This document shows, in pieces, positions 106 to 37,620 of a stretch of DNA of 39,204 nt (positions are counted from its first letter, which is position 1; each line of letters begins with the position of its first letter). Both the position numbers and the translations under genes were made by a program. The stretch lies in contig JAFZCU010000118.1 of the NCBI GenBank assembly GCA_017556145.1, positions 1 through 39,204 on the forward strand, written 5' to 3'. The stretch is from Prevotella sp. (GTDB lineage: Bacteria; Bacteroidota; Bacteroidia; Bacteroidales; Bacteroidaceae). The notes below the pieces were generated by a model. It ran no database searches. It saw only the letters and a list, made by a program, of their open reading frames with translations, and was not told where the DNA came from.

Positions 106-140
106 ATAATTGATAATGGAAAATGGATAATGGATAATTA
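106..140. repeat. Heptamer tandem array (ATAATGG family)
   Basis: Five consecutive 7-bp units can be read: ATAATTG, ATAATGG, AAAATGG, ATAATGG, ATAATTA. The array abuts the tRNA-Pro promoter, ending 6 bp from its -7 element. Together with the array at 222-249, whose words are roughly the reverse complement, it flanks an 80-bp core that contains the 42-bp repeat. The region 106-249 could therefore be read as a small element with imperfect inverted ends, but no target-site duplication was identified. Confidence 0.85.
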
Positions 141-180
141 TTTGGAGGTTCACATTTTTTAACAGCTCACCCACCATTAT

Positions 181-222
181 CCGCTCGAGCTCTGCTCGCT
201 TGCTACCGAAGGGACGCAAGAA
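181..222 (-). repeat. 42-bp exact repeat, copy 1
   Basis: This 42-bp stretch is identical to 37624-37665. Read on the minus strand it begins TTCTTGCGTCCCTTCGG and ends GAGCTCGAGCGG. It holds two possible hairpins: CTTGC/GCAAG around a 12-nt loop, and CGAGC-AGA-GCTCG. Both copies lie just past the 3' end of a minus-strand gene in the same orientation and touch heptamer arrays. Here it follows the stop of the serine palmitoyltransferase gene by about 20 bp. Its function is unknown; a REP-like intergenic element is the closest analogy. Confidence 0.9.
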
Positions 223-249
223 TTATCAATTATCAATTGTCCATTATTT
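222..249. repeat. Heptamer tandem array (ATTATCA family)
   Basis: Four 7-bp units: ATTATCA, ATTATCA, ATTGTCC, ATTATTT. The array overlaps the stop codon of the serine palmitoyltransferase gene (244-246) and runs up to the 42-bp repeat. Its units are roughly the reverse complement of those at 106-140. Confidence 0.8.
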
Positions 250-1431
250 TATAATCCCTTGCTCAACGAAGATCTTCTTCAGGGCCACCACCGAGCGGTC
301 TACCTGCTCCTTGGTATGCGTAGCCATGAGGGCATAGCGTACGAGGGTATCCTGAGGTGCACATGCTGGCGGGATGACGGGATTGATGAACACACCGGCC
401 TTGAAGGCGAGTGCCGTCACCAGGAACGTCTTCTCCACATCGCGCACATACAGCGGGATAATCGGGCTCTCGGTATCGCCGATCTCGAAGCCTTCCTCAC
501 GGAAACGCTTCAGGGCATAGTTGGTAACATCCCACAGAGCCTGGATGCGCTCGGGCTCGCTCTGGATGATATGCAGGGCGGTCATGGCAGCAGCCGTGGC
601 GGCGGGGGTGTTCGAAGCCGAGAAGATATAGGTGCGGCAGGTGTGACGCAGATAATTGATGGTGTCCCAGTCGGATGCAATGAATCCACCGATGGATGCC
701 AGCGACTTCGAGAAGGTTCCCATGATGAGGTCTACTTCGTCGGTCAGTCCGAAATGATCGCACACGCCCCTACCCTGTTTGCCGAAGACACCGATGCCGT
801 GGGCCTCGTCGACCATCACCGAGCAGTTGTATTTATGCTTGAGTTCGATGATCTCAGGCAGCTTGGCAAGGTCGCCCTCCATGGAGAACACACCGTCGAT
901 GACAATCAGCTTGATGGCCTCCTGAGGCAGCTTCTGAAGCACGCGCTCCAGGTCCTGCATGTCGTTGTGCTTATAATGCAGCTGCTTGGCAAAGGCCAGA
1001 CGGCGGCCGTCAACAATCGATGCGTGGTCGCGGTCGTCGCAGATCACATAGTCATCCTTGCTCAAGAGTGCGGGAATCACGCCCTGGTTGACCGAGAATC
1101 CTGTAGAGAAGCACAGGCAGTCGTCTTTGCCGATGTACTCGGCGATTTCCTTTTCGAGCTGAACATGCAGGTCGAGCGTTCCGTTGAGGAATCGGCTGCC
1201 TGCACAGCCAGAACCGTATTTGTCGAGCGCCGCCTTGGCTGCATCGATGATACGCTGGTCGCCTGTCAGACCCGTATAAGCATTCGATCCGAACATCAGC
1301 ACCTTATGGCCGCCCATTTCAACTTCAGTCCCCTGCTTGCCCTCAATGGCACGAAAATATGGGTACACATCGGCCTCCATGTACTTCTGAGGTTCACGAT
1401 AATGCTTGAATCTTTCTTGTAACTGTCCCAT
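244..1431 (-). CDS. spt: Serine palmitoyltransferase (alpha-oxoamine synthase)
   Basis: A 395-aa cytosolic PLP enzyme of the alpha-oxoamine synthase family. Family knowledge: serine palmitoyltransferase condenses L-serine with a fatty acyl-CoA to give 3-ketosphinganine, the first step of sphingolipid synthesis, and sphingolipid-making Bacteroidales carry one such enzyme of about 395 aa. Seen here: the motif VDEAHGIG at about 207-214, the PLP lysine K242 in GTFSKSLASIGG, the cofactor-stacking His136 in DRDHAS, and an N-terminal KYMEADVYPYFRAIEG block typical of the Bacteroidetes enzymes. Full length, with an ATG start about 40 bp downstream of a -7 element. Alternatives within the family are KBL (glycine C-acetyltransferase) and BioF; the N-terminal block favours Spt. 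The divergent neighbour is a lipid kinase, which fits a lipid role. Confidence 0.88.
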   Translation of the reverse strand: MGQLQERFKHYREPQKYMEADVYPYFRAIEGKQGTEVEMGGHKVLMFGSNAYTGLTGDQRIIDAAKAALDKYGSGCAGSRFLNGTLDLHVQLEKEIAEYIGKDDCLCFSTGFSVNQGVIPALLSKDDYVICDDRDHASIVDGRRLAFAKQLHYKHNDMQDLERVLQKLPQEAIKLIVIDGVFSMEGDLAKLPEIIELKHKYNCSVMVDEAHGIGVFGKQGRGVCDHFGLTDEVDLIMGTFSKSLASIGGFIASDWDTINYLRHTCRTYIFSASNTPAATAAAMTALHIIQSEPERIQALWDVTNYALKRFREEGFEIGDTESPIIPLYVRDVEKTFLVTALAFKAGVFINPVIPPACAPQDTLVRYALMATHTKEQVDRSVVALKKIFVEQGIIK

Positions 1432-1472
1432 TCCGATAGGTAAGTTTTTTACTATATTTTTATTTCAAGCTG

Positions 1473-1480
1473 CAAAGTTA
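1473..1480 (-). promoter_or_regulatory. Promoter -7 element for spt
   Basis: Minus-strand TAACTTTG followed by C matches TAnnTTTG. A TTG at 1502-1504 on the same strand, 21 bp upstream, is a candidate -33 element. The spt start codon lies about 40 bp downstream. Confidence 0.75.
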
Positions 1481-1574
1481 CACATTTTTTGGCAAATCGT
1501 GCAAGAAAATCTTAATAAATGTGGTTTTAATCGTTTTTTCTTGAATATTTCATGCATTTTTCACCGGATTTTCG

Positions 1575-1582
1575 TACTTTTG
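1575..1582 (+). promoter_or_regulatory. Promoter -7 element for the lipid kinase
   Basis: TACTTTTG followed by C matches TAnnTTTG and lies only 10 bp before the ATG at 1593. The predicted transcript would have almost no 5' leader. No convincing -33 TTTG was found at 19-22 bp. Confidence 0.65.
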
Positions 1583-1592
1583 CATCGTAATT

Positions 1593-2624
1593 ATGAAGAA
1601 AAGGATAACATTTATCATCAACCCGATATCGGGCACTCATTCGAAGGAGGAGATACCACAGATCATCGAATCGGTGCTCGACCATGAACAATTCACACCC
1701 GAACTGCGCTTCACCGAATATGCCGGACATGCCTCCGAGATAGCCCATGAATGCACCGAAAAAGGTCAGGACATCGTGGTGGCCGTAGGTGGCGACGGTA
1801 CGGTGAACGAGGTGGCGCGCTCACTGACACACACGGATACCGCCCTCGCCATCGTGCCCTGCGGCTCTGGCAACGGCCTGGCGCGGCATCTCTGTCTGCC
1901 CCTCGATGTCAAGAAGGCCATAGAGACCATCAATGCCTGTAAGATCGAGGCGTTTGATTATGGCGTGATCAACGACCTGCCTTTCTTCTGCACCTGCGGC
2001 ATGGGCTTCGATGCGTTTATCTCGCTGAAGTTTGCCGAAGCAGGCAAGCGCGGCCCTATCACCTATGTGGAGAACGTGCTGAAGGAGGGGCTGAAATACA
2101 AGCCCGAGACCTACGAGGTATCGGATGAAACGGGCGCGAGACGCTACAAGGCCTTCCTGATAGCCTGCGCCAATGCGTCGCAATACGGCAATAATGCCTA
2201 TATCGCCCCAGGGGCCACGATGAAGGACGGCGAGATGGACGTGGTGATCATGGAGCCGTTTGATGTGCTCGACGCCCCGCAGATAGCCGCCGACCTGTTT
2301 ATGAAGACCTTCGGCAACAACTCGAAGATCAAGACCTTCCGTGCCAAGCGCATTCATATCCACCGCAAGGAGCCGGGTGCCATCCACTTCGACGGCGACC
2401 CTATCATGACCGATGCCGACATCGACGTGCATATTGAGCACGAGGGCATCCGGATCGTGACCAATCCAGAGGCCATCGAGGATGCCAGCCAGCCGAACTT
2501 CCTCCTGAATGCCTTCAGCGACTTCTTTAATAATATTAATAATGTACGTGAGGACATCGAGAAACGTGGCAAGCGGATACAACGGGTGAACAAGGTGATG
2601 CTGAGGAAGCTTACGAAGCTTTAG
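1593..2624 (+). CDS. DagK/YegS-family lipid kinase
   Basis: A 343-aa soluble lipid kinase with the DAGK catalytic fold. Such enzymes transfer the ATP phosphate to a lipid hydroxyl (diacylglycerol, sphingoid base or ceramide). Seen: the phosphate-binding loop GGDGTVNE at 66-73, the second glycine-rich loop PCGSGNGLAR at 89-98, and the C-terminal beta-rich part around HFDGDPI with its conserved acidic residue. The GSGNGLA loop looks more like the sphingosine-kinase form (GSGNALA) than the GTANDFA form common in YegS; that is inference from memory. The gene is divergent from spt, about 160 bp between start codons, which makes a sphingolipid substrate plausible but unproven. A five-unit heptamer array follows the stop codon immediately. 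Confidence 0.85.
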   Translation: MKKRITFIINPISGTHSKEEIPQIIESVLDHEQFTPELRFTEYAGHASEIAHECTEKGQDIVVAVGGDGTVNEVARSLTHTDTALAIVPCGSGNGLARHLCLPLDVKKAIETINACKIEAFDYGVINDLPFFCTCGMGFDAFISLKFAEAGKRGPITYVENVLKEGLKYKPETYEVSDETGARRYKAFLIACANASQYGNNAYIAPGATMKDGEMDVVIMEPFDVLDAPQIAADLFMKTFGNNSKIKTFRAKRIHIHRKEPGAIHFDGDPIMTDADIDVHIEHEGIRIVTNPEAIEDASQPNFLLNAFSDFFNNINNVREDIEKRGKRIQRVNKVMLRKLTKL

Positions 2625-2659
2625 AGTTGAAAGTTGAGAGTTGAAAGTTGAGAGTTGAG
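2625..2659. repeat. Heptamer tandem array (AGTTGAR)
   Basis: Five perfect 7-bp units directly after the lipid kinase stop: AGTTGAA, AGTTGAG, AGTTGAA, AGTTGAG, AGTTGAG. The A/G alternation gives a 14-bp higher-order unit. The array ends 5 bp before the ATG of the next gene, and its last bases (GAGTTGAGGTGAT) supply the purine-rich stretch where a ribosome binding site would be. Confidence 0.9.
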
Positions 2660-2664
2660 GTGAT

Positions 2665-2847
2665 ATGTGGCAGATGGGAGTGGTGATGATAGTGCTGGTG
2701 CTTTCGGCTGGATATGTCGGATGGCGGGTGTATCGGTCGTTCAGAAGCGATGCAAAGCCCTGTTGTGGGTGCGAGGGATGTCCGCTAAAAGGCCCCCATT
2801 GCGCGGATAAATGCCACGAAAAATGCAGCGAAAAACAGAAATCTTAA
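2665..2847 (+). CDS. Small Cys-rich single-pass membrane protein (FeoB-associated-like)
   Basis: A 60-aa protein with one N-terminal membrane helix (about residues 4-24) followed by a short basic stretch and a Cys-rich tail: CCGCEGCPL, then two more Cys in ADKCHEKCS. Such a helix plus CCxCxxC tail resembles the FeoB-associated Cys-rich membrane proteins (Pfam family of that name), which are small accessory proteins often found by ferrous iron transporters. No feoB is present in this window, so the assignment rests on the protein pattern alone. It lies 40 bp downstream of the lipid kinase, separated by the heptamer array, and is probably cotranscribed. Metal binding is likely; the function is uncertain. 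Confidence 0.6.
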   Translation: MWQMGVVMIVLVLSAGYVGWRVYRSFRSDAKPCCGCEGCPLKGPHCADKCHEKCSEKQKS

Positions 2848-2909
2848 TAGTGTTTGGGGGGGCGTAAAATCCCGCCTTGTGTTAAAATATGTTGTGCGGT
2901 AGCAAATTC

Positions 2910-2937
2910 TTCACTCTACACTCTTCACTCTTCACTT
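2910..2937. repeat. Heptamer tandem array (TTCACTC) upstream of tRNA-Cys promoter
   Basis: Four units: TTCACTC, TACACTC, TTCACTC, TTCACTT. The array ends 7 bp (TTTTTTG) before the -7 element of the tRNA-Cys promoter. The same word, in the same orientation and at almost the same distance, precedes the promoter at 5697. Confidence 0.88.
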
Positions 2938-2944
2938 TTTTTTG

Positions 2945-2952
2945 TACCTTTG
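2945..2952 (+). promoter_or_regulatory. Promoter -7 element for tRNA-Cys
   Basis: TACCTTTG followed by C is a clear TAnnTTTG match, preceded by a T-tract and a heptamer array. The tRNA starts about 94 bp downstream, so the primary transcript carries a leader with two predicted hairpins. Confidence 0.75.
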
Positions 2953-2969
2953 CACCCGCATTTGAAATA

Positions 2970-3033
2970 AAGGTGCGTTGATCTTCGATCGACCCACCTT
3001 CGCTCAGAAGAGCTGATGCGAGCATCGCTCTTC
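2970..3033 (+). other. Two hairpins in the leader of tRNA-Cys
   Basis: Hairpin 1 (2970-3000) is closed by AAGGTG/CACCTT with an inner GATC-TTC-GATC stem. Its left arm AGGTGCGTTGAT closely resembles the first bases of the tRNA-Cys (GGTGCGTTGGAT). Hairpin 2 (3007-3033) has the stem GAAGAGC/GCTCTTC with one bulged T and an inner GATG/CATC. Both lie between the promoter and the mature tRNA and would be removed by 5' processing. They may guide processing, or be remnants of a deleted tRNA copy. Confidence 0.55.
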
Positions 3034-3045
3034 ACTCGCTTAAAC

Positions 3046-3117
3046 GGTGCGTTGGATGAGTGGCTTAGTCTACGGTCTGCAAAACCGTCCACGGCGGTTC
3101 GAATCCGCCACGCACCT
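3046..3117 (+). tRNA. tRNA-Cys (anticodon GCA)
   Basis: A complete cloverleaf: acceptor stem GGTGCGT/ACGCACC, anticodon stem ACGGT/ACCGT around loop CTGCAAA (anticodon GCA), T arm GGCGG-TTCGAAT-CCGCC, and the U discriminator characteristic of tRNA-Cys. CCA is not encoded (CAG follows). A strong hairpin 10 bp downstream ends the transcript. Confidence 0.95.
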
Positions 3118-3127
3118 CAGAGGCAAA

Positions 3128-3159
3128 AAAGATCCCCAACCGAAAGGCTGGGGATCTTT
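3128..3159. terminator. Bidirectional terminator between tRNA-Cys and the DUF1232 gene
   Basis: AAAGATCCCCAACC, loop GAAA, GGCTGGGGATCTTT: a 14-bp stem with one mismatch, A-rich on one side and T-rich on the other. It can terminate both the plus-strand tRNA-Cys transcript and the minus-strand operon whose last stop codon is at 3161. Confidence 0.85.
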
Positions 3160-3160
3160 G

Positions 3161-3550
3161 TTATTCGCCATCGAAGAGATTGCCGATTTCGGCTATCTCG
3201 TCTTCATCAAACCATTTCGAGAGCCGTTTCCTGGCCTTTTCCTGAATCTCGGGGTCGATGTCTGTCCATACCTTCTTCAGTACATAGAGCAGCACGGCAA
3301 GGTCGTCGGTGAGGCCTGCGATGGGAATAGCATCGGGAATGGCATCGAGCGGACTGATCATATAGCCCAGGGCACCGATGATGATGGCCTTGTCCTTCTT
3401 GCTTACCTTGTCGCTTTGCAGCGTGTAGTAGAGAATCAGGGCCGCATAGACGAGCTTGGCACCTGCACGCTTGGCAATACGTGAAATCTTTTCTGCGAAG
3501 TCTCTTTTCGAGAACTTCCCGCCATAGTTCATAAAATCGGGTAATTCCAT
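3161..3550 (-). CDS. DUF1232 (YkvA-like) protein
   Basis: A 129-aa protein with the DUF1232 signature in its second half: GALGYMISPLDAIPDAIP, then GLTDDLAVL. This motif pair, a hydrophobic YxxSPxDxIPD hairpin followed by DD, defines the YkvA family, small membrane-associated proteins of unknown role. A moderately hydrophobic helix (LVYAALILYYTL) precedes it. It is the last gene of a leftward operon, 6 bp after the DUF1460 gene, and is followed by a strong terminator hairpin. No biochemical function is known. Confidence 0.85.
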   Translation of the reverse strand: MELPDFMNYGGKFSKRDFAEKISRIAKRAGAKLVYAALILYYTLQSDKVSKKDKAIIIGALGYMISPLDAIPDAIPIAGLTDDLAVLLYVLKKVWTDIDPEIQEKARKRLSKWFDEDEIAEIGNLFDGE

Positions 3551-3556
3551 ATTCTT

Positions 3557-4591
3557 TTAATTTTTCTGAGTATTCGGAGTATTCTGAGTATTCTGAGTTA
3601 TCGGAGTATTCTGATTGATTCGGATGATGCGGATGCCGGTGTGAGAGGGATGCTTCTGAAGATACTGATAGAGCGTCATGGGCTCCTCGATGACCTTCTT
3701 GTGCAACTGCGAGGCGTTGAGCAGATGAAGTCCATCCTGACGCCATACGGCAAAGCCCAGATGGGCAATGTCGAGTCCGGGCTTGTTGCAGGTGATGGCA
3801 ATGATGTCGCCATCGTGGATGGCTTCACGCATCGCCTTGGTATCCTTCACCTCCGATTTGGGGATGAAGCGGAACTTCTGTCCGGTAATGCGCTCCTCCA
3901 TCTTGCGGATGTCGGGCACATACTCGGGATGCGCCTTCAGGGCCTTGTAGCTCTGAGGGTGCTCACTCATATAGCTGACCTTGACGGTTTGTATCGCGGT
4001 GAATGGCGGATTGGGCTGCTGGATTTCACTGACGATGCCTGCCTTTTGATTGGTGACAATCCAATCGGTGAAATAATGGATGCGCGAGGTGTATTTGTCG
4101 ATGATGCCATTGTAATAGCGCATGTTGCGGAGATTATCCTGGAAGGCCGCGAAGGTGAACTGCTTCTGATAGGCGCAGCGTGTGAGGGCCGTGACGGTCT
4201 CCACCAAGGTGGTGCAATCAAGCTCACTGACATTGATAACGAGCTGCTCATCATCGTTGACCTCGAGGGTGTATGCCACGTAAGGCACATCGAGAAACTT
4301 GCGGGCAAAGAAGAGCGGGAAACAGGTATCGGCTGGCTTCTGAGAGGCCTCTTTGAGCAGGGTTTCGAGGAGGATGCGGTAGTCGGGCTTCTTGGAATTA
4401 TCGGAGTACTCGGAGTTTTCGGAGTAATCAGAGTTTTCTGAGTAATCTGAGTAATCGGAGTAATCAGAGTAATCGGAAGACTCGGATGAGGGGGCTGCTG
4501 GCTTCGAGACACCACCATTGGCACACGACTGCAGAGGCCAGATGAGGGCGCAAATGGCAAGCAACAGGATGATATGGGAATAATGCTTCAT
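3557..4591 (-). CDS. DUF1460 (NlpC/P60-like) lipoprotein with tandem-repeat linkers
   Basis: A 344-aa predicted lipoprotein. The signal peptide ends in the lipobox LQSC, with lipidation expected at Cys23. The body (about 75-320) is DUF1460, a papain-like NlpC/P60-related fold thought to act as a murein amidase or peptidase. Seen: the putative nucleophile Cys126 in ELDCTTLVE and the putative catalytic His277 in DIAHLGF. Two low-complexity segments stand out. Residues 37-66 are repeats of the type DYS/ENS/EYS/DNS, and the last 19 residues are NTQ/NTP-type repeats. Both are encoded by 9-bp tandem repeats of the same family as the uxuA-uxuB spacer. The gene is second in an operon, 12 bp after the oxidoreductase gene. 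Confidence 0.82.
   Translation of the reverse strand: MKHYSHIILLLAICALIWPLQSCANGGVSKPAAPSSESSDYSDYSDYSDYSENSDYSENSEYSDNSKKPDYRILLETLLKEASQKPADTCFPLFFARKFLDVPYVAYTLEVNDDEQLVINVSELDCTTLVETVTALTRCAYQKQFTFAAFQDNLRNMRYYNGIIDKYTSRIHYFTDWIVTNQKAGIVSEIQQPNPPFTAIQTVKVSYMSEHPQSYKALKAHPEYVPDIRKMEERITGQKFRFIPKSEVKDTKAMREAIHDGDIIAITCNKPGLDIAHLGFAVWRQDGLHLLNASQLHKKVIEEPMTLYQYLQKHPSHTGIRIIRINQNTPITQNTQNTPNTQKN
3564..3626 (-). repeat. In-frame 9-bp array encoding the C-terminus of the DUF1460 lipoprotein
   Basis: Plus-strand words TTCTGAGTA, TTCGGAGTA, TTCTGAGTA, TTCTGAGTT, ATCGGAGTA, TTCTGATTG, ATTCGGATG, the last two degenerate. On the coding strand these are TACTCAGAA-type units, the same family as 15191-15262. 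A 9-bp unit keeps frame and yields NTQ/NTP tripeptides in this phase. Confidence 0.88.
4400..4489 (-). repeat. In-frame 9-bp array encoding the Ser/Asp/Tyr linker of the DUF1460 lipoprotein
   Basis: Ten 9-bp units on the plus strand: ATCGGAGTA, CTCGGAGTT, TTCGGAGTA, ATCAGAGTT, TTCTGAGTA, ATCTGAGTA, ATCGGAGTA, ATCAGAGTA, then two degenerate ones. They encode DYS/ENS/EYS tripeptides just after the lipidated cysteine. The phase differs from the C-terminal array, so the same DNA family gives a different peptide. Confidence 0.88.
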
Positions 4592-4603
4592 TTCTTTTCG
4601 GAT

Positions 4604-5596
4604 TTAGAATTTGCCGAGAATACGATCCATGGCCCAGTTGACGGGCGTGGCCGATACACTCGTACAGGTGCAGACACCGATGCCCTGCAACTGCTCGATG
4701 ACATTCTTGATGATGGGATACTGCACATACGGCGGATTAGGCACCGTGATCTCCTGATCGCCCTCGCTCGTCTGCAGGCGAATGGGCTTGTAATCGAAGA
4801 TGGAGAAGCAGACCAAGCCCTCGGTGCCGATGATCTCAATGCAGTCTTCACGCGCACTCTCATGCGCCACATAGCACCACGAGCCACTGCCTGGCAAGCC
4901 GTTCTCAAACTGGAAGCAGGCGCTCACGGAATCCTCAGCCTCGTAATAGCCGCCACGATTGCTACAGATGCCTCGAGCTTCGAGAATCACGCCGAACATG
5001 TGTTGCAGGAGATCGAGCTGGTGAGGGGCCATATCGTAGAAATAACCGCCACCCGCAATCTCCGGGCGCAGACGCCATGGCAGCTCATCACCATTCCTGA
5101 TGGCCTCGGCATCAACAGCACGAAGGGGCTCCGTATAGCGCACCTGAACATTGATAATACGGCCTATAGCACCACTTTTAACAATATCGAAAACTTTCTG
5201 AAAATAAGGCAGATACCGACGATAGTAAGCCACAAAGCAAGGTACGCCCGTCTGCTCTGAGATACGATTGATACGGGCACAGTCTTCATAGCTCGATGCC
5301 AGGGGTTTCTCCACATACACGGGCTTGCCAGCCTTCATGGCCATGATGGCATAGGTGGCATGACTTGATGGCGGTGTGGCCACATAGACGGCATTGACAT
5401 CGGGATCATCGATGAGTTCCTGGGCATCGGTGTACCATTTGGGCACCCCATGCTTAACGGCATAGGTTCGTGCACGGCGCTCTGTACGGCTCATGACAGC
5501 CACCACGCTTGAGCCCTCCACCTCGCTGAAGGCTGGGCCGCTTTTGGTCTCCACCACCTCACCGCAACCGATGAATCCCCACTGCAATATCCTCAT
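4604..5596 (-). CDS. Gfo/Idh/MocA-family oxidoreductase
   Basis: A 330-aa NAD(P)-dependent oxidoreductase. The N-terminal Rossmann domain opens with WGFIGCGEV; the family signature lysine is in VEKPLA, where it acts in hydride transfer; the C-terminal GFO/IDH alpha-beta domain follows, containing GGGYFYDMAPHQLD with the usual Asp and His. Members act on sugars, inositols or related polyols, but the substrate cannot be read from the sequence. First gene of an operon with the DUF1460 and DUF1232 genes (gaps 12 and 6 bp), with a -7 element 18 bp before its ATG. Its relation to cell-wall genes is unexplained. Confidence 0.88.
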   Translation of the reverse strand: MRILQWGFIGCGEVVETKSGPAFSEVEGSSVVAVMSRTERRARTYAVKHGVPKWYTDAQELIDDPDVNAVYVATPPSSHATYAIMAMKAGKPVYVEKPLASSYEDCARINRISEQTGVPCFVAYYRRYLPYFQKVFDIVKSGAIGRIINVQVRYTEPLRAVDAEAIRNGDELPWRLRPEIAGGGYFYDMAPHQLDLLQHMFGVILEARGICSNRGGYYEAEDSVSACFQFENGLPGSGSWCYVAHESAREDCIEIIGTEGLVCFSIFDYKPIRLQTSEGDQEITVPNPPYVQYPIIKNVIEQLQGIGVCTCTSVSATPVNWAMDRILGKF

Positions 5597-5613
5597 ATTT
5601 TATAATTTTGGTG

Positions 5614-5621
5614 CAAAGATA
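5614..5621 (-). promoter_or_regulatory. Promoter -7 element for the oxidoreductase operon
   Basis: Minus-strand TATCTTTG followed by C, 18 bp before the start codon at 5596. The leader would be about 10 nt. Confidence 0.72.
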
Positions 5622-5660
5622 CTTATTTAAATTTAAAATTAAGAGCGCGGCAGCATTTTT

Positions 5661-5688
5661 TTCACTGTTCACTCTTCACTTTTCACTT
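5661..5688. repeat. Heptamer tandem array (TTCACTC) upstream of the 5697 promoter
   Basis: Four units: TTCACTG, TTCACTC, TTCACTT, TTCACTT. It ends 8 bp before the -7 element at 5697 and covers the place of the -33 element. It is nearly identical in word, orientation and distance to the array at 2910-2937. Confidence 0.88.
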
Positions 5689-5696
5689 CTTTTTCG

Positions 5697-5704
5697 TAAC
5701 TTTG
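5697..5704 (+). promoter_or_regulatory. Promoter -7 element for the membrane protein-hisB operon
   Basis: TAACTTTG followed by C, about 32 bp upstream of the chosen ATG at 5736. It also argues against a TTG start at 5709, which would lie almost on the transcription start. Confidence 0.75.
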
Positions 5705-5735
5705 CACGTTGAAAAGTAATACAAAACGCGAAATT

Positions 5736-12267: not shown

Positions 12268-12299
12268 TTCTTTTCTACTATTTAGATTAAAACTTGTTG

Positions 12300-12307
12300 C
12301 AAAAGTA
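12300..12307 (-). promoter_or_regulatory. Promoter -7 element for the cstA operon
   Basis: Minus-strand TACTTTTG followed by C, 33 bp before the cstA start codon. It is divergent from the promoter at 12352, with the heptamer array lying between the two. Confidence 0.72.
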
Positions 12308-12314
12308 CAAAATA

Positions 12315-12349
12315 ATTGTGAATTGTGAATTATGATTTGTGAATTATTT
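12315..12349. repeat. Heptamer tandem array (ATTGTGA)
   Basis: Five units: ATTGTGA, ATTGTGA, ATTATGA, TTTGTGA, ATTATTT. It fills the space between two divergent promoters, ending 2 bp before the plus-strand -7 element at 12352 and starting 7 bp from the minus-strand one at 12300. Confidence 0.85.
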
Positions 12350-15190: not shown

Positions 15191-15262
15191 ACTCAGAATA
15201 CTCAGATTACTCAGAATACTCAGATTACTCAGAATACTCAGATTACTCAGAATACTCAGATT
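15191..15262 (+). repeat. Perfect 4 x 18-bp (8 x 9-bp) tandem array forming the uxuA-uxuB spacer
   Basis: ACTCAGAAT and ACTCAGATT alternate four times without a single mismatch, giving 72 bp that begin on the first base after the uxuA stop and end 3 bp before the uxuB ATG. The uxuB ribosome binding region must therefore lie in repeat sequence. The perfection suggests recent expansion or copying. The same words occur in frame within the DUF1460 gene at 3564-3626 and 4400-4489. Confidence 0.97.
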
Positions 15263-15265
15263 ATT

Positions 15266-31459: not shown

Positions 31460-31482
31460 CCGCCTGTTGCTCTGACCATTTA

Positions 31483-32055
31483 TCAGAACGTCAGGAGTTC
31501 GTTGTAGATGCGCTGCACAGGCAGGCCCATGACATTGAAATAACTGCCCGACAGGCTTGTTACGCCAATATAGCCTATCCATTCCTGAATCCCGTAGGCA
31601 CCGGCCTTGTCTAACGGCTTGTAATGGTCGACATAATAGTCGATTTCTGCCTCAGTCAGTGTCTTGAAGGTGACATCGGTGGTCACGGCGAAACTACGTT
31701 GGCGTTCACGCGTCATCAGACAGACGCCCGTAATCACCTGATGCGTCTGCCCGCTCAGTTCGCGCAGCATCCTTCGGGCATCGTCCAAATCGACGGGTTT
31801 GCCGAGCACCTCATTCCCCAGCACCACCACCGTATCGGCGGTGATGATGAGATCGTGCGCCGACATCATATCCTTGTAGGCAGCGGCTTTCTCTGAGGCG
31901 ATATACACCGGTATGTCGGGCGTAGCCAGAGAGGTCGGATAGCTTTCCTCGATATCAGGTAACACGCGGACCTCGAAGTCGATGTCAAGTCCGCTGAGCA
32001 GTTGGCGGCGGCGCGGTGAGTTGCTGGCGAGGATGATATGATAATTCTCAAGCAT
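31483..32055 (-). CDS. maf: Maf-like nucleoside triphosphate pyrophosphatase
   Basis: A 190-aa cytosolic Maf/Ham1-superfamily enzyme that hydrolyses non-canonical or modified nucleoside triphosphates (dTTP/UTP or m7GTP types). Seen: the N-terminal phosphate loop ILASNSPRRRQLL, the conserved ASEKAAA, the general base region ITADTVVVLGNEVLGKP, and DKAGAYGIQEWIG near the C-terminus. The AYGIQEWIG form is typical of the dTTP/UTP (YhdE-like) subgroup; that is inference. It is last in the operon nitroreductase - kdsC - maf, 12 bp after kdsC. Confidence 0.93.
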   Translation of the reverse strand: MLENYHIILASNSPRRRQLLSGLDIDFEVRVLPDIEESYPTSLATPDIPVYIASEKAAAYKDMMSAHDLIITADTVVVLGNEVLGKPVDLDDARRMLRELSGQTHQVITGVCLMTRERQRSFAVTTDVTFKTLTEAEIDYYVDHYKPLDKAGAYGIQEWIGYIGVTSLSGSYFNVMGLPVQRIYNELLTF

Positions 32056-32067
32056 AGACCAATTGGT

Positions 32068-32586
32068 TTACCAGCCGAAGGCTTTCTCGTCCATCACCCA
32101 TTTTCCCTGAGCACGCAACGTCTGTTCAATCACATCGCGGCCACAGCCATAACCACCGATGCAGTCGCTCACATAAAGACTTGCCTCCTTGATTTCAGGA
32201 CAGGCATCCTTGGGACATACCGGGCAGCCCACACGACGCATGATCTGCAGGTCGGGAATGTCGTCGCCCATATACATCACCTCGCGGTCATTCAGGCCGT
32301 ATTGCTGCAGGAATGCCTCGTAGGCCTTGATCTTCACGGCACACCCCACGTAGATGTCCTCAACGCCCAGGCCCTCATAGCGCCGGCAGATGCTCGACAC
32401 ATTGGCACCCGTCATAATGACGATACGGAGACCAAGTTTCATGGCCAGCTGGATGGCATAGCCGTCTTTGATGTTCACCGTACGCAAAGGCACACCGTCA
32501 GACGACAGCGTGATGGTCTCCGCACTCAGCACACCATCGATGTCGAAGATGATTGCCCTGATTTTCTTCAAGTCATAGTTAATCAT
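32068..32586 (-). CDS. kdsC: 3-deoxy-D-manno-octulosonate 8-phosphate phosphatase (KdsC-like)
   Basis: A 172-aa HAD-family phosphatase without cap domain, acting as a tetramer in the family. Seen: nucleophile motif DIDGVL with its two Asp, the motif II Thr in IMTGAN, and motif IV GDDIPDLQIM, followed by the KdsC-typical C-terminal GGYGCGRDVIEQ. It removes the phosphate from KDO-8-phosphate in the pathway to LPS core. It lies between the nitroreductase and maf genes. Its start codon and the preceding stop are joined by two copies of a heptamer, TATAAAC. Confidence 0.9.
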   Translation of the reverse strand: MINYDLKKIRAIIFDIDGVLSAETITLSSDGVPLRTVNIKDGYAIQLAMKLGLRIVIMTGANVSSICRRYEGLGVEDIYVGCAVKIKAYEAFLQQYGLNDREVMYMGDDIPDLQIMRRVGCPVCPKDACPEIKEASLYVSDCIGGYGCGRDVIEQTLRAQGKWVMDEKAFGW

Positions 32587-32599
32587 ATAAACTATAAAC
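32586..32599. repeat. Two-unit heptamer array (TATAAAC) between nitroreductase and kdsC
   Basis: TATAAAC occurs twice in succession and fills the 12-bp gap between the kdsC start and the nitroreductase stop. The same two-unit array occurs at 37607-37620, and the words match the array at 35137-35178. Confidence 0.7.
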
Positions 32600-33126
32600 T
32601 AATACTTATTCAGATGTACGTTCTCCCATTTCAGCTTATCCTCGTTCTGCGGCTTGCGCTCATCGGCCTTATGTCCCACGGCAAGGATGCAGAGGCAATA
32701 GAGATTGTCGGGGATGTCGAGCACGCCCCGGATCACGGTGTCGGCTGTAGTCCCGTCATCGAGTCCCCGTCCACGCATCTGAATCCAACAGGAGCCTAAG
32801 CCCAATTCTTCCGCCTGATACTGCATGGAGATGGCGGCAATGGCACCATCCTCTATCCAGCAGTCGTTCTGCACAGGATCGCCCAGCACAACAATAGCTA
32901 CGGGTGCCCCTTTGAGGAACTGTCCGCCGAGGTTCTTGGCATCAGAGAGTTTCTCGAGGTCTAATTTGTCGTCGACCACCACAAACTGCCACGCTCTTTG
33001 GCCCTTGGAGGTCGGTGCCATCAGGCCAGCCCGGAGAATCAGTCTGAGATCGTCGCCATCGATTTCCTGTTCCGTAAATTTGCGGTGACTGCGACGCAAC
33101 TGCGCCAGATCTTTGAAATTTGTCAT
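32599..33126 (-). CDS. Nitroreductase-family FMN oxidoreductase
   Basis: A 175-aa cytosolic flavoprotein of the nitroreductase superfamily. Seen: RRSHRKFTEQEID, the FMN-binding start of the family, APTSKGQRAWQFVVV, GAIAAISMQYQAEELGLGSCWIQ and a CILAVGHKADERK ending. These proteins reduce nitro compounds, quinones or flavins with NAD(P)H; the natural substrate is not evident. First gene of an operon with kdsC and maf, with a -7 element 24 bp upstream. Confidence 0.9.
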   Translation of the reverse strand: MTNFKDLAQLRRSHRKFTEQEIDGDDLRLILRAGLMAPTSKGQRAWQFVVVDDKLDLEKLSDAKNLGGQFLKGAPVAIVVLGDPVQNDCWIEDGAIAAISMQYQAEELGLGSCWIQMRGRGLDDGTTADTVIRGVLDIPDNLYCLCILAVGHKADERKPQNEDKLKWENVHLNKY

Positions 33127-33149
33127 ACACTTGGTCTTTAAAATTTTGG

Positions 33150-33157
33150 CAAAGATA
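33150..33157 (-). promoter_or_regulatory. Promoter -7 element for nitroreductase-kdsC-maf
   Basis: Minus-strand TATCTTTG followed by C, 24 bp before the start codon at 33126. It is divergent from the promoter at 33233. Confidence 0.72.
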
Positions 33158-33232
33158 CTTATTTTTTTAGATAAAAGAACAAAAGAAACAGAAAAAAATA
33201 TGTTCTTATGTCATTATGTCTGAAAAATATTG

Positions 33233-33240
33233 TATTTTTG
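33233..33240 (+). promoter_or_regulatory. Promoter -7 element for the FemAB-like gene (near-leaderless)
   Basis: TATTTTTG followed by C, only 4 bp before the ATG at 33245. Transcription would start at or next to the start codon, so the message is predicted to be leaderless or nearly so. Confidence 0.65.
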
Positions 33241-33244
33241 CGGC

Positions 33245-34222
33245 ATGAAAGGAATCACAACTACCATCTTTACCCATCTGGAGAAGTTGCCTGCCGTGAG
33301 CGACGCCAATTTCTTCCACAGCCGGGAGCTCTTCGCCATCAGTGCGAAGACGCCGAGAATGAAGCCTTATATGGTAGTGTGTACCGATGATTCCGGACGT
33401 ATACTGAGTCAGTTGCTGGCCATCGTCCGTTACCGTGCCTCCATCCTTCCTCCCTTCTTCTTCATGCATGGCCGTGTGATGGGTGAAGGCGAATATGCCT
33501 CCAGCGAATGGCGGAAGGAAGACCTGTTCGGCGAAATGCTGCAGGTTCTCACGAAGAAGATGGGCAGCAAGACGCTCTATATCGAGTTCAGTCATCTCAC
33601 GCAGAAGACCTTCGGTCACAAGTGGTTCCGTCAGCAGGGCTATTTCCCGGTGCATTGGATGAGCATCCACAATTCCCTTCACAGCCGTCTGCCCGAAGAG
33701 CGCATTAACGAGAAGTTGCAGCAACGTATCGACAATGCCTATTCGCGGGGGGTGACCACCGGTGAAGTGGAGAATGACGACGACTTCAAGGCCTTCGCTC
33801 AGTTGCTTCGCCAGCACAACTGGTTCAAGCCGAAACGGTATATCCCCGACAATCAGTTCTTCATTGAGGCAGCAAAGACCGACTCCTGTCGGCTCTTCGT
33901 TACCAAATACCAGCAGCATGTGATCGGCTGTTCTGCCTGTGTGTACAGTCAGGGCGACGCTTACCTATGGTATGCGGCTTTCCGGCGTAAGACCTATGTG
34001 ATGCTCCATCCTGACACGCTGACCATCTGGCACACCATCAAATACGCCCACCAGCATGGCTACAACCACATCAACTTCATGGATGTAGGCTTGCCTTTCC
34101 GCAAGAACTCCTTCCGCGAGTTCATCCTGAGTTTCGGCGGTAAGCCCGTCAGCACCGTGCGTTGGTTCCGCAGTTCCATCCGCTGGATCAACGCCCTCCT
34201 CTCGTGGATCTATCGCGACTAA
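33245..34222 (+). CDS. FemAB/GNAT-like acyltransferase
   Basis: A 325-aa soluble protein that resembles the FemAB/BioF2-like subgroup of GNAT acyltransferases, which transfer amino-acyl or acyl groups. Seen: LLAIVRYRASILPPFFFMHGR early (strand-helix typical of GNAT halves), a middle GYFPVHWMSIHNSL, a C-terminal GNAT half around IGCSACVYSQGDAYLWYAAFRRKTY, then HTIKYAHQHGYNHINFMDVG, a pattern common to this family. The ATG at 33245 is chosen over an ATG at 33230 that lies before the -7 element. Its stop codon overlaps that of the convergent EamA gene. Donor and acceptor are unknown. Confidence 0.7.
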   Translation: MKGITTTIFTHLEKLPAVSDANFFHSRELFAISAKTPRMKPYMVVCTDDSGRILSQLLAIVRYRASILPPFFFMHGRVMGEGEYASSEWRKEDLFGEMLQVLTKKMGSKTLYIEFSHLTQKTFGHKWFRQQGYFPVHWMSIHNSLHSRLPEERINEKLQQRIDNAYSRGVTTGEVENDDDFKAFAQLLRQHNWFKPKRYIPDNQFFIEAAKTDSCRLFVTKYQQHVIGCSACVYSQGDAYLWYAAFRRKTYVMLHPDTLTIWHTIKYAHQHGYNHINFMDVGLPFRKNSFREFILSFGGKPVSTVRWFRSSIRWINALLSWIYRD

Positions 34223-35136
34223 CGGCTTCCGATATAGAGGAACACCATTCCTAAGAGCACCAGCGCCAGATCGAAGGCTTTGGCCTTGAGGTTCTTTTCG
34301 TGGAAGAACATCGCACCGAACATGAAGCTCACCACCACGCTGCCGCGCCGGATCATCGACACGATGCTGATCATCGCATCTGGCAGACTCAGAGAATAGA
34401 AATACATGAAATCGGCAGTCGAGAGGAAGAGACTGACACCCAGGATCGACCACGACCAATGGAAAGGGGTGGTCTCCTCATGCTTCGGCCACCAGAGGAG
34501 CCACAGCATCAGGCCCATCATGACACACTGGTAGATATTGTACCACGACTGCACCATCATGCGGTCGAGTCCTACGCCTCCGCTTTCCACGGGTGCCATC
34601 AGGTATTTGTCGTAAAGTCCGCTCAGAGCCCCGAGGGCTGCAGCCCCCACAATCATATAGATCCAGTGGTCGTGTTTGAAATCGATGCCCTCCTTCTTGC
34701 CGCTCCGGCTCAGCAAGAGAAACGATGCCACCGCCAGGAGCACGCCAATCCACTGCCAGACGTTCAGGCGTTCGCCGAACACCAGCAGGGCGCCCACTAA
34801 TACCATCACCGGCCGTGTGGCATTGATGGGGCCTACGATGGTCAGGGGGAGATGCTTCATGCCGAAATAGCCGAGAATCCAGCTCGACAAGACAATCACC
34901 GCCTTCAGGACGATGTACTTGTGCATCTCCCAGCCGCCGCTCGCTACATGGAAGATACCGCCGTCGAGGCTATCCGACGTACCGCTGACGATGATAAAGG
35001 GCAGGAAGATCAGTGAGGAGAACAGGGTGTTGAGAAACAACACAGGAATGACCGCATTGCCCTTCAACGCCTGTTTCTTAAACGAATCATAGCAGCCTAA
35101 CAGCGCTGCCGACATAAATGCCAATATCAGCCACAT
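34219..35136 (-). CDS. EamA (DMT superfamily) transporter
   Basis: A 305-aa inner-membrane protein with about ten helices arranged as two EamA repeats, the layout of drug/metabolite exporters. Seen: a first repeat ending LTIVGPINATRPVMVLVGALLVFGERLNVWQWIG and a second with SLPDAMISIVSMIRRGSVVVSFMFGAMFFHEKNLK, each with the family's conserved Pro/Gly region and closing E(R/K) before the last helix. The substrate cannot be read from sequence. It is the last gene of a leftward series, 28 bp after truA, the gap being filled by heptamers. Its TAG stop and the TAA of the convergent FemAB-like gene share four bases. Confidence 0.88.
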   Translation of the reverse strand: MWLILAFMSAALLGCYDSFKKQALKGNAVIPVLFLNTLFSSLIFLPFIIVSGTSDSLDGGIFHVASGGWEMHKYIVLKAVIVLSSWILGYFGMKHLPLTIVGPINATRPVMVLVGALLVFGERLNVWQWIGVLLAVASFLLLSRSGKKEGIDFKHDHWIYMIVGAAALGALSGLYDKYLMAPVESGGVGLDRMMVQSWYNIYQCVMMGLMLWLLWWPKHEETTPFHWSWSILGVSLFLSTADFMYFYSLSLPDAMISIVSMIRRGSVVVSFMFGAMFFHEKNLKAKAFDLALVLLGMVFLYIGSR

Positions 35137-35178
35137 CTATAAACTCTAAACTATAAACAATAAACTATAAACTATAAA
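35137..35178. repeat. Heptamer tandem array (CTATAAA) between truA and the EamA gene
   Basis: Six units: CTATAAA, CTCTAAA, CTATAAA, CAATAAA, CTATAAA, CTATAAA. The array begins on the base next to the EamA start codon and runs through the truA stop codon (35165-35167) into the last few truA codons, so the end of TruA (YSL) is array-encoded. Confidence 0.92.
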
Positions 35179-35905
35179 CAACATCTTCCAGGAACAGCGC
35201 ATTGCCTGGCATCGACTCACCGGCATCCGAACGCTGCTTGCCTTCAATCACTTTCCTGAAGTCGTCAAGCGACAGACGGCCCCGCCCCACTTCAATCAGT
35301 GTGCCCACCACCGCACGGACCATGTTACGGAGGAAACGGTTGGCACGGATCTCAAAATACCAGGTGGTCGGCGAGGTCTGCACCCACTCTGCCTTGGTCA
35401 CTTCGCACAAGGTGGTCTTCACATCGGCTCCGCTCTTGCAGAAGGCCCCGAAATCCTCGTAAGTCATCAGAATACCAGCAGCCTCGTTCATCTTGGCGAA
35501 GTCCAACGGATAGTGTATCTCACACGAATAGGCCTTCAGAAAGGGGTCTTTCACGGTATGGATATAATAACGGTACATGCGCGAGGTGGCTGAGAAGCGG
35601 GCATGCTTGTCGTCGCTGACCGGTTCCACCTTGCTGACGGCAATGTCATAAGGCAGCAGACGGTTCAGCTTATAGGCCAGCTGCTGACAGTCAATCGCAT
35701 CACCCTCCCAATCGAAGTGTGCCACCATCATCCGGGCATGTACACCGGTATCCGTCCTGCCTGCGCCCGTCACCCCCACCGCTGCTCGCAGCAGCGTGGA
35801 GAGCGCTTCTTGCAGACGGGCTTGCACGGAATCACCGTTCGGCTGTATCTGCCAGCCGTGATACCGCGTCCCGTCATAACTCAATGTCACAAAATACCTA
35901 CTCAT
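35165..35905 (-). CDS. truA: tRNA pseudouridine(38-40) synthase
   Basis: A 246-aa cytosolic enzyme that makes pseudouridine at positions 38-40 of the tRNA anticodon arm. Seen: the N-terminal [15 protein letters not shown], the catalytic Asp in [17 protein letters not shown], and [21 protein letters not shown] near the end. Length and motifs are those of a normal TruA. Its last residues and stop codon lie in a heptamer array, and another array fills the gap to the preceding GH43 gene, so both ends of the gene are bordered by arrays. Confidence 0.94.
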
Positions 35906-35954
35906 ACATCAAACATCTTACATCATACATCATACATCTTACATCATACATCTT
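35906..35954. repeat. Heptamer tandem array (ACATCWW) between GH43 and truA
   Basis: Seven units: ACATCAA, ACATCTT, ACATCAT, ACATCAT, ACATCTT, ACATCAT, ACATCTT, with a partial eighth. It starts at the base adjoining the truA start codon and ends within the GH43 stop codon, so it fills the whole junction. Confidence 0.95.
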
Positions 35955-37602
35955 ACTTCGTCACCCTTATCCAGTCCGCGTCTACCCAGCCGCGATCACA
36001 TTTCGGATCGGTCTCCGCAGCGATGAATCCGAACTTTGCCCCGATCCATTTGCCTTCCTTCATCTGGAATGTCTGACCGCAATCCGTAAACTGCCTGCCG
36101 TTTGGGCTATACGAGAAACTGACCTTCGAGTCATTCACCTTCAGACGCAGATAGATATCCTCATGAACACCCGGCTTATAGTCAATCTTGTCGACGGCAG
36201 TGGGTTTCAGCGTGGCAATGATTTCCTCCGTCTGTGGATTACCCTTGTCGGCAGCTTTGCAGGTCATTTGCACCAGTTGGAACGTCTGACCCATCCGGCG
36301 AATCACGAGGGCGGAATAGTCGAGTCCCATCATGATCAGGCCTCCGAACTGTCCGTCGGCCTTCGAGGTCATACGGATCTTAGTGGTCACCGTGAACGCA
36401 TCGGCCGGTGTCTTCTGAAGCAGCAGGTTAGGCACTTCCCAGAAGTTCTTCCAGTTCTGTGAGAGTTTATAGGTGTAGATGCGGAAGGTGCCGAAGGCGT
36501 TGGGCACACCGAACTTCTCGTCGTAATTGGCATGCCATTGCCACTGTTTGCCCATCACAGGCGCATCAAACTCATCGCTCTCCACGGGATTGGTTATTGG
36601 ATATTGTTTATTGGTCACTGGCTTTCTGTAGGTCGTCACAGGCTCCCCTTTCTTACCCATGACGGGCCAGCCCGTTGACCAGTCGACGGGATTCAGGTGA
36701 ACCACCCTGCCGTAAGCTTCCTTATCCTGAAAGTGCAGAAACCAGTCCTCACCGTATTTCGTATGCACCCATCCGCCCTGATGAGGGCCGTTGATATTGG
36801 TCTTACCCTGTGCCAGCACAATCTTATGTTCATAGGGGCCGTATGGCGATTTCGAGCGCATAGCGAGCTGGAAGCCAGTGGGCACACCGCCTGCCGGACA
36901 CATGATCCAGTACCAGCCGTCGCGCTTATAGAACTTCGGACCCTCACAGGTGCGGTTCTCGGTGCCATTACCGTCGAATACAATCACAGGCTGTCCGATG
37001 GCCTTCGTACCATCTGCCGAGAGTTCGCGCACGGTGAGCACACTGGCGAATTTCGAGCGCGAATTGGCCCAGCCGTTCACCAAATAGCAACGCCCGTCTT
37101 CATCCCAAAGTGGTGTCGGATCGATATAGCCCTGTCCTTTGATCACGCAGACGGGATCCTCCCATTCACCGGCAGGGTCTTTGGTCTTCACCATATAGAC
37201 ACCGAAGTCGGGGTCGCCCCAATAGATATAGTATTCGCCATTGTGGTAACGGATGGAAGGCGCCCAGACACCATTACCGTGCTGAGGGGTGCTGAAATGC
37301 TGCTCCAGCTCGGCATCGCCCGTGTAGAGCGACTTCAGCGCATGGCCGATGATTTCCCAGTTCACCAGATCTTTCGAATGGAGGATGGGCAGGCCGGGCA
37401 CACAGTTGAACGACGAAGCCGTCAAGTAATAATCCTCGCCACTGGGGCCCACGCAGACATCGGGGTCGGAATAGTCGGCATTGATCACCGGATTCATATA
37501 GGTGCCGTCGCCCAGATCCGGCGACCAGACCTCGCTCCTGTAATTGGTTTGTGCATTTGCCATCAACGGCAACACCATAGTCAGTAAGATTAGTTTCCTC
37601 AT
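35953..37602 (-). CDS. Exported GH43-family glycoside hydrolase
   Basis: A 549-aa exported enzyme. Signal peptide 1-17 (MRKLILLTMVLPLMANA). The N-terminal five-bladed propeller (about 30-330) is GH43 with the likely general base Asp46 in ADYSDPDVC, the pKa modulator Asp161 in YIDPTPLWD and the general acid Glu220 in TCEGPKFY. The C-terminal part (about 345-549) is a beta-sandwich as in GH43 xylosidases/arabinofuranosidases. The linker KPVTNKQYPITNPV is encoded by a five-unit heptamer array, which is unusual within a gene. The enzyme probably removes xylose or arabinose residues from hemicellulose; the exact specificity is not evident. The gene lies 43 bp after the ATP-grasp gene. Confidence 0.9.
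   Translation of the reverse strand: MRKLILLTMVLPLMANAQTNYRSEVWSPDLGDGTYMNPVINADYSDPDVCVGPSGEDYYLTASSFNCVPGLPILHSKDLVNWEIIGHALKSLYTGDAELEQHFSTPQHGNGVWAPSIRYHNGEYYIYWGDPDFGVYMVKTKDPAGEWEDPVCVIKGQGYIDPTPLWDEDGRCYLVNGWANSRSKFASVLTVRELSADGTKAIGQPVIVFDGNGTENRTCEGPKFYKRDGWYWIMCPAGGVPTGFQLAMRSKSPYGPYEHKIVLAQGKTNINGPHQGGWVHTKYGEDWFLHFQDKEAYGRVVHLNPVDWSTGWPVMGKKGEPVTTYRKPVTNKQYPITNPVESDEFDAPVMGKQWQWHANYDEKFGVPNAFGTFRIYTYKLSQNWKNFWEVPNLLLQKTPADAFTVTTKIRMTSKADGQFGGLIMMGLDYSALVIRRMGQTFQLVQMTCKAADKGNPQTEEIIATLKPTAVDKIDYKPGVHEDIYLRLKVNDSKVSFSYSPNGRQFTDCGQTFQMKEGKWIGAKFGFIAAETDPKCDRGWVDADWIRVTK
36587..36621 (-). repeat. Heptamer array inside the GH43 coding region
   Basis: Plus-strand units GGATTGG, TTATTGG, ATATTGT, TTATTGG, TCACTGG, that is CCAATAA-type words on the coding strand. 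It is the only heptamer array seen wholly inside a gene and lies exactly between the catalytic domain and the C-terminal sandwich, where five units (35 bp) would be tolerated as linker. Confidence 0.65.
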
Positions 37603-37606
37603 ATAT

Positions 37607-37620
37607 TATAAACTATAAAC
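37607..37620. repeat. Two-unit heptamer array (TATAAAC) before the 42-bp repeat
   Basis: TATAAAC twice, then TCT, then the second copy of the 42-bp repeat. It fills the gap upstream of the GH43 start codon. Confidence 0.7.

Follow-up and report, generated by a model that had tools for sequence, protein, structure and literature searches.

Heptamer repeats in prokaryotic genomes

Among tandem repeats between the genes of prokaryotes, those with a unit of seven bases are the most abundant, and the surveys describing them give, as far as their accessible text goes, no clue to function (PMC6344855; Mrazek 2007, quoted in PMC4679880). This report concerns arrays of this kind in a 39,204-bp stretch of Prevotella DNA (contig JAFZCU010000118.1 of assembly GCA_017556145.1; hereafter the window), together with a group of short foldback elements to which many of them appear to belong. 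Two kinds of dispersed repeat form the structural background: REP (repetitive extragenic palindromic) and REPIN sequences, in which a palindrome of 20–40 bp has a tagged end and is associated with a RAYT transposase, and the foldback elements of eukaryotes, whose long inverted ends are built of short direct repeats.

The window is one contig of a Prevotella metagenome-assembled genome of 3.46 Mb (C22 of 242 contigs; 82.7% complete, 5.0% contaminated), and its TruA protein finds its best matches in Prevotella and Prevotellaceae, many of them of rumen origin.

Foldback elements with heptamer arms

The period-7 arrays are probably, in good part, the arms, whether paired or single, of dispersed foldback elements of about 100–155 bp. 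The original prediction, made by reading the window alone, had taken them for a free-standing family of junction repeats, a description that gives way to this one. A full element consists, from 5′ to 3′, of several heptamers on the C-poor strand, TATGATTAC, a short variable middle, GGCTTGCnnGGTAATCATA, and several copies of the reverse complement of the heptamer. The shared core, TGATTAC...GGCTTGCnnGGTAATCA, was found by reading inverted pairs of arrays. The sample for this genome comprised 61 stretches with 69 arrays, namely the window, the starts of 40 contigs picked by number, and 20 further stretches drawn mostly from contigs matched in searches for CTATAAA or for a 39-bp element described below. 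Arrays of the same word lying 8–200 bp apart formed eight inverted and no direct pairs in this sample, with the C-poor arm first in all eight; the arrays at 106–138 and 221–247 of the window are one of these pairs. An inverted partner of the same word within 200 bp was found for 12 of the 69 arrays, compared with 0–3 in ten word shuffles, and a direct partner for one. The inverted pairs are predicted to fold into long stems, a prediction made without a shuffled control.

When 150 genomes of the genus were searched with the right half of the core only, and with no condition on the arms, 83 places in 44 genomes were matched. This half written backwards matched in 18 genomes, so many one-mismatch matches must be due to chance; by eye, 11 of 30 loci from this search have heptamer arms. 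The source genome itself carries eight copies of the core at no more than one mismatch. Inspection of core contexts at 50 loci showed different words on one core. TTTATAG arms occur in the source genome, G018 and G388, and the other arm words, assigned by reading, include AACTCTT/CACTCTT (G031), TCAATTC (G405), TCATTTC (G321), TAATTAC (G342 and G353), TTACTCA (G310), CACTCAT (G397) and CACTCTG (G328), among others. In a separate observation, a contig of G397 (L370, contig C7) ends in three repeats of the right half of the core, spaced 71 bp apart.

The arms were then compared among 33 core candidates from 13 genomes, which were not selected for their arms and which include mirror duplicates, a few coding sequences mistaken for cores (L098, and L321 twice), and L319, in which the 39-bp element interrupts the left arm; L319 also represents the source genome in the one-per-genome test below. 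Self-match within the arms reached 65% at lag 7 and 61% at lag 14, versus 28–31% at lags 3–6, 8–13 and 15, and letter-shuffled arms gave 0.333 ± 0.010 at lag 7. The strongest lag was 7 or 14 in 12 of the 13 genomes, 14 exceeding 7 in two, and the thirteenth is the false core L098. Left and right arms were complementary at 20.2 of 28 positions within elements versus 13.8 between genomes; with one element per genome (n = 10), the values were 19.7 of 26 and 12.8, 10 of 90 swaps reaching 19.7, and 25 of the 26 positions displayed at least two types of Watson–Crick pair. The arms are strongly biased in composition, with 4.9% C in the left and 2.1% G in the right.

Both arms of an element change together, and the period is kept while the word changes at a homologous position. 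Since these elements were found by their conserved core only, a fixed period with a changing word is here the direct form of the earlier proposal that something keeps the 7-bp spacing as the word varies. That proposal is borne out for the core-found elements, but must accommodate the sharing of words within a genome. The fixed core marks homologous copies, and word change can therefore be followed through a phylogeny.

Excess of period 7 and genome-specific words

Period preference was measured with a lag scan (periods 4–30) for self-matching segments, using a single score threshold set where simulated sequence yields no matches for any period; five runs of an order-2 Markov simulation in 1-kb windows gave no matches at any period, ruling out simple chance as the source of the arrays. 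Across the 41 stretches comprising the window and the 40 contig starts (443,426 bases), period 7 produced 35 matches, 6 in the window and 29 elsewhere, followed by period 9 with seven, periods 8 and 15 with five each, and the remaining periods with at most four. Twenty-five of the period-7 matches are non-coding and ten lie in called genes; no other period exceeds four non-coding matches. An excess of period 7 in non-coding DNA, the mark of heptanucleotide repeats, is thus present here. The original prediction would have fallen had there been no excess of period 7 over periods 5–12, or had the arrays been limited to the window; the scan instead gave 35 matches against 0–7 for any other period. 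By the same result, the phenomenon is not peculiar to the window, since the excess is genome-wide.

Among relatives, 80 loci around truA from other genomes (1.36 Mb) yielded 70 matches at period 7, 24 at period 22 and 22 at period 8. Elsewhere in the order, 236 kb in 16 stretches from other families gave two matches at period 7, fewer than the five at period 10, so a strong excess was seen in the genus only. The excess of period 7 is therefore genome-wide and strong in the genus. A search of Rfam returned no fitting family, its five matches (E 0.04–0.87) all falling under the gathering scores. Periods 22 (23 of the 24 matches non-coding; e.g., L080 5855, L091 7643 and L096 15720) and 23 (six matches in the 80 loci; e.g., L117 14534) seem to repeat the pattern of a constant period with varying words, each array seemingly having its own word, some of them palindromic.

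Each genome also seems to have its own dictionary of words. Three units of CTATAAA at up to two mismatches have 152 overlapping matches in the source genome, and the same pattern backwards has none. In the relatives’ 80 loci, arrays within a locus shared a word (up to one mismatch) in 27 of 72 pairs versus 203 of 2343 pairs between loci; shuffled labels gave a mean of 6.9 within-locus matches, and none of 2000 shuffles reached 27. The arrays mostly have a C-poor strand: 45 of the 69 arrays lack C on one strand, as do 34 of 70 arrays in relatives, compared with 1.9% of random non-coding pieces of equal length. Words can recur widely. Across 247 genomes of the phylum, three units of AGGAGWC occur in six, including the source genome and, with 21 matches, G060 of another family; three units of AGAGGTR likewise occur in six, the source genome included. 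A control word, the same letters in reverse order, also gives arrays in individual genomes, with 183 matches in G300, and recurrence therefore points to dictionaries and not to one favoured word; the idea of universal slippage words was rejected on this result.

Turnover between relatives and entry into genes

Comparison of orthologous sites indicates turnover. Seventy-two arrays entered 243 orthologous comparisons, of which 8 showed the same word, 17 an array with a different word, 149 a gap no longer than 40 bp with no array in it, and 69 other sequence; these comparisons are not independent, being dominated by arrays beside truA, and the detector calls some degenerate arrays absent. Length differences in the eight same-word comparisons were 0 in four, and in the other four 1, 12 (twice, from a single pair compared in both directions) and 15 bp. 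At the truA–EamA junction, the gap is a few bases long in some relatives, and others have arrays of TTTACAG, GCATTAA, AATTATG, TTCACTC or 8-bp units. The gap 5′ of truA measures 57–64 bp here, depending on where the flank alignment ends, versus 29, 36 and 33 bp in L053, L054 and L055, and 3′ of ackA a 99-bp element here faces 36, 20 and 23 bp in three relatives. At another junction, an element with AACTTTG arms is common to L069 and L075, L072 has 18 bp, L066 carries a different foldback with 9-bp units (by eye) and L093 an AGAGGTR array. One element, found in L323 and L349, is conserved at an orthologous site.

Arrays have also entered conserved genes, including those for LigA, MutS2, MurB and MiaB. 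The LigA loop between its anchors has 52 residues here versus 18–19 in five relatives of 92–94% identity. A MutS2 loop has 27 residues here. Both of its anchors were located in 22 relatives, the loop having 7 residues in 13 of these and being filled by other repeats in some of the rest; in MurB and MiaB the heptamer-coded residues align opposite gaps in solved homologues. Genome-wide, 28 of 69 arrays lie inside a called gene, 25 of them reading without stop codons and 17 of those having stops in all frames of the other strand, a pattern favoured by the gene caller, a simple codon-score program whose in-gene calls require an open frame by construction and which shifts some starts, leaving distances to start codons approximate. 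Of the 41 intergenic arrays, 22 abut a stop codon, and in every one of these the sense strand is the C-poor one, as expected because a foldback has a C-poor 5′ arm on either strand. Arrays located inside conserved enzymes bear on the origin of protein loops.

Origin of the arrays

The foldback reading is supported directly by the 7-bp period of the arms, the core common to genomes with different words, the matched arms, the sharing of words within loci and genomes, the empty sites and the in-gene arrays. The elements probably spread as hairpin-forming parasites, being copied to new sites with no gene of their own. Most arrays in this genome are solitary, and we therefore infer their descent from full elements; they would be half elements. 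Copies would survive where harm is least, just past stop codons, ahead of start codons, or in protein loops in the stop-free orientation, purifying selection thereby shaping position and orientation. In an extruded hairpin, each arm could template the repair or replication of the other, with change spreading by whole units; such arm-on-arm templating would keep the 7-bp register as the word drifts, and copying within a genome would spread one dialect across it. For the host, the consequences are probably slight, amounting to a stem-loop at transcript ends and an A/T-rich spacer ahead of start codons.

Several observations weigh against this reading. A clear partner exists for only 12 of the 69 arrays, with a core-like tail alone in seven more, and same-word pairs 8–200 bp apart in relatives include six direct beside seven inverted ones (six with the C-poor arm first; two sharing one array). 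Start-abutting arrays have the C-poor strand in sense in 17 cases versus 3, contrary to the C-rich sense strand predicted for full elements, and fit only if they are solitary 5′ arms. The core-like sites of L363, L341 and L342 have GC-rich arms, of the CCCTCCCTGTAGGGAGGGG type, and no heptamers. At the two sites for which empty relatives served as comparison, no target-site duplication could be seen, the arms obscuring the ends, and the insertion at the L069/L072 site was not clean, since the start of the downstream gene is lost. Some TTTATAG arrays may share unit order, the observed value being reached in 13 of 500 shuffles, a weak and merely suggestive test. The AGTGAAR arrays beside promoters, described below, have a different tail. 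Finally, a unit of seven, rather than six or eight, does not follow from the model.

Among the alternatives, the most credible, if unlikely, is plain replication slippage with a built-in preference for seven nucleotides, each array growing in place from a chance unit. Its basis could, for example, lie in the roughly 7 nt of DNA in contact with the polymerase, an idea of Mrazek (2007) as quoted in PMC4679880 and PMC4692102. Heptamers do lead in many prokaryotes as they do here, the gap 5′ of truA, a degenerate site, exceeds those of the three relatives by 35, 21 and 24 bp, two of which are multiples of 7, and the first unit of the truA–EamA array overlaps ancestral codons. Nothing in slippage, however, predicts that many unrelated sites in one genome should share a word, that LigA, MutS2, MurB and MiaB should have one in common, or that there should be inverted partners or a conserved core; moreover, the length differences between same-word orthologues are never multiples of 7 apart from the zeros, and where both orthologues have an array the word differs more often than it agrees (17 and 8 of the 243 comparisons). 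Selection at gene junctions, with heptamers serving as binding sites or as ribosome-friendly spacers ahead of start codons, is a shade less plausible. Of the 41 intergenic arrays, 20 lie against a start codon, the C-poor strand being the sense strand in 17, which would suit this idea, and for the TAACTGA repeats of Beggiatoaceae the accessible text proposes S1, cold-shock or Csr proteins as binders, adding that a cold-shock protein can bind heptamer repeats with one protein per unit (PMC4679880). Against it, as many arrays abut a stop (22 of 41, some abutting both), the same junction has different words in relatives, 149 of the 243 orthologous comparisons lack an array and have short gaps (some degenerate arrays having been missed), and 28 of 69 arrays are inside genes.

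A bolder thought, and a distinctly doubtful one, is that the arms are actively rewritten, some machinery working in steps of 7 nt and swapping the word in both arms of all copies of an element family in a lineage, which would leave the core inherited and the arms a dialect peculiar to each genome; the boldest candidate for a writer is an RNA-templated, telomerase-like enzyme. That a dedicated writer of this type, such as a reverse transcriptase whose RNA template sets the arm word, accounts for the arrays is very improbable. It was considered because DRT10 (UG17) enzymes are reported to make tandem-repeat DNA of variable words from a short RNA template (PMC12632851, as far as its accessible text goes) and because the only reverse transcriptase found in the incomplete genome, on the minus strand (L411 1069–2457, corresponding to 8201–9589 of contig C35; PADLOC E 4e-162), is of the UG26 type, the UG17 model also ranking among its next best matches in PADLOC. 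A genome with many words would nevertheless require many templates, and the 4.5 kb around the UG26 gene contain three matches of at least 9 nt to 22 unit words, compared with 1–7 in shuffles; with no excess of unit-word matches to mark a DRT10-like template, the reverse-transcriptase writer was rejected. An artefact of assembly or binning is scarcely credible. The genome’s 242 contigs, incompleteness and 5.0% contamination would allow for one, yet arrays occur in named isolates (Prevotella sp. ne3005, L059; Xylanibacter caecicola, L098; Prevotella sp. tc2-28, L111), four pooled 20-kb stretches of G009, G010, G016 and G024, two of them one-contig genomes, gave eight period-7 matches, and the L323/L349 element is conserved in place.

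Arrays of the window and other repeats

The original prediction’s observation of period-7 arrays is real and partly confirmed. Tandem Repeats Finder (TRF) recovered arrays at all ten places that it had named, with unit matches of 80–100%, plus a weak ATTGGTT array at 36589–36615 (plus strand) that it had passed over, within the GH43 gene at 35953–37602. Two of the ten, TATAAAC at 32586–32601 (minus strand, between two codirectional genes) and at 37607–37621 (plus strand), have only about two copies each. Words do vary, as had been claimed, but not from every array to the next: CTATAAA at 35137 is TATAAAC in another register, TTCACTC occurs twice, and ATAATGG and ATTATCA, listed as distinct, are one word family on opposite strands of an inverted pair. 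A higher unit of 14 bp had been suggested for many arrays; one of 14 or 21 bp is present in two (2623 and 35902). Confinement to non-coding junctions holds for the window’s lag-scan matches, all six of which at period 7 are non-coding (period 8 gave one match; period 9 gave three, one non-coding and two coding), but not genome-wide, as the in-gene arrays attest.

The inverted pair begins with ATAATGG/ATAATTG at 106–138 (TRF), the left arm, with its C-poor strand on the plus strand and directly upstream of the promoter-like GTGCAAAGGTACT of a tRNA-Pro gene (89–101, read on the minus strand), and ends with the right arm at 221–247 (TRF; minus strand, ATTATCA as read on plus). The AGTTGAR array at 2623–2659 (plus strand), with alternating units giving 14 bp, begins at the stop codon of a gene with a diacylglycerol-kinase domain (1593–2624). 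On the minus strand, an AATTGTG array at 12314–12345 adjoins the promoter-like GCAAAAGTAC of the CstA gene (12299–12308, read on the minus strand), a solitary array with TTTATAG in sense at 35137–35179 fills the gap from the truA stop to the start of the EamA-domain gene, and an ACATCAT array (GATGTAW in sense) at 35902–35956 lies between the GH43 stop and the truA start.

Arrays of AGTGAAR followed by a GCTRCCGC tail may be another thing, serving or riding with promoters. Both window examples, on the plus strand, lie directly upstream of a promoter-like site: at 2896–2956, GCGGTAGCAAATT (2896–2908) precedes a TTCACTC array (2908–2936), a T tract and TGTACCTTTGCACC (2943–2956), and at 5647–5707, GCGGCAGCA (5647–5655) precedes a TTCACTC array (5659–5688) and CGTAACTTTGCAC (5695–5707). 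The same arrangement of array and tail is found in L099, L109, L114, L129, L207 and L212, from several species; in L109 both occur at the truA–EamA junction with no evident promoter.

The 39-bp element is GC-rich and forms two small hairpins. Its window copies, both on the plus strand, lie at 182–220, nested in an array with ATTATC at both flanks, and at 37625–37663, after the two TATAAAC copies (37607–37663 in all) and flanked on both sides by AACTCTC; others are in L133–L154. With up to three mismatches allowed, the 22-bp second half is found at 22 sites of the genome (control 0). Several copies lie within or beside tandem arrays, perhaps flanked by 5-bp direct repeats (TTATC, CTCTC, TGCAC, CTATA and GGAGA, by eye). 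A single word family, TTCTGAGTA with its reverse complement, makes up period-9 arrays in the window at 3564–3614, 4400–4477 and 15191–15263, two of these sites being in an AmiA-like gene and one between the genes for UxuA and mannitol dehydrogenase; in relatives, foldback arms seem to be formed by other 9-bp units (the L066 junction above, and L383).

Comparison with known systems

The excess of heptamers is known but unexplained, and convergent pairs are known in Xanthomonas. The literature searched, which covered few subscription papers, contained no report of such arrays in Prevotella, of a constant core with a changing word, or of arrays as inserts in conserved proteins, in-frame insertion having been queried only narrowly. 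The earlier statement that no system of this kind is described thus holds for Prevotella in that literature, but not for the heptamer excess of prokaryotes at large, which is described. A core with exchangeable heptamer arms offers a way into the question of why 7-bp repeats are so abundant in bacteria, which has long gone unexplained.

The surveys of long simple sequence repeats (Mrazek 2007; the SPADE survey, PMC6344855) share the heptamer excess and, in their accessible text, report counts without element structure. The GGGAATC repeats of Xanthomonas and GGGGAYT repeats of Nostoc (PMC4692102) are likewise dispersed heptamer arrays with variable unit positions; most have four units, and most lie between genes, closer to the upstream one. 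The 70 (Xcc) and 75 (Xac) convergent two-site cases, read as G-rich strand first as here, give the paired layout a precedent. They differ in having one word per group and a G-quadruplex interpretation, with no conserved core reported in the accessible text, and Xcc and Xac share 83% of sites, whereas many words, turnover and a core with changing words are found here (PMC4692102). The TAACTGA repeats of Beggiatoaceae, Cyanobacteria and five Bacteroidetes (PMC4679880) are heptamer arrays directly upstream of start codons, as here, and some of the same intergenic regions contain other heptamers; unlike here, the account, as far as accessible, describes a single word and no paired-arm element.

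Miniature inverted-repeat transposable elements (MITEs) and REPINs, as described in the accessible text of PMC10969869 and PMC3116915, are also small, dispersed, gene-less and built on inverted repeats, but the arms here are tandem heptamers of a genome-specific word. Like MITEs, the Prevotella elements have terminal inverted repeats around a short non-coding middle and several copies per genome; their terminal repeats are not, however, homologous between the copies of different hosts, since arm words differ between most genomes and it is the core that agrees. The foldback elements of eukaryotes resemble them in having inverted ends of tandem short units around a variable middle, and differ in host, size and unit length.

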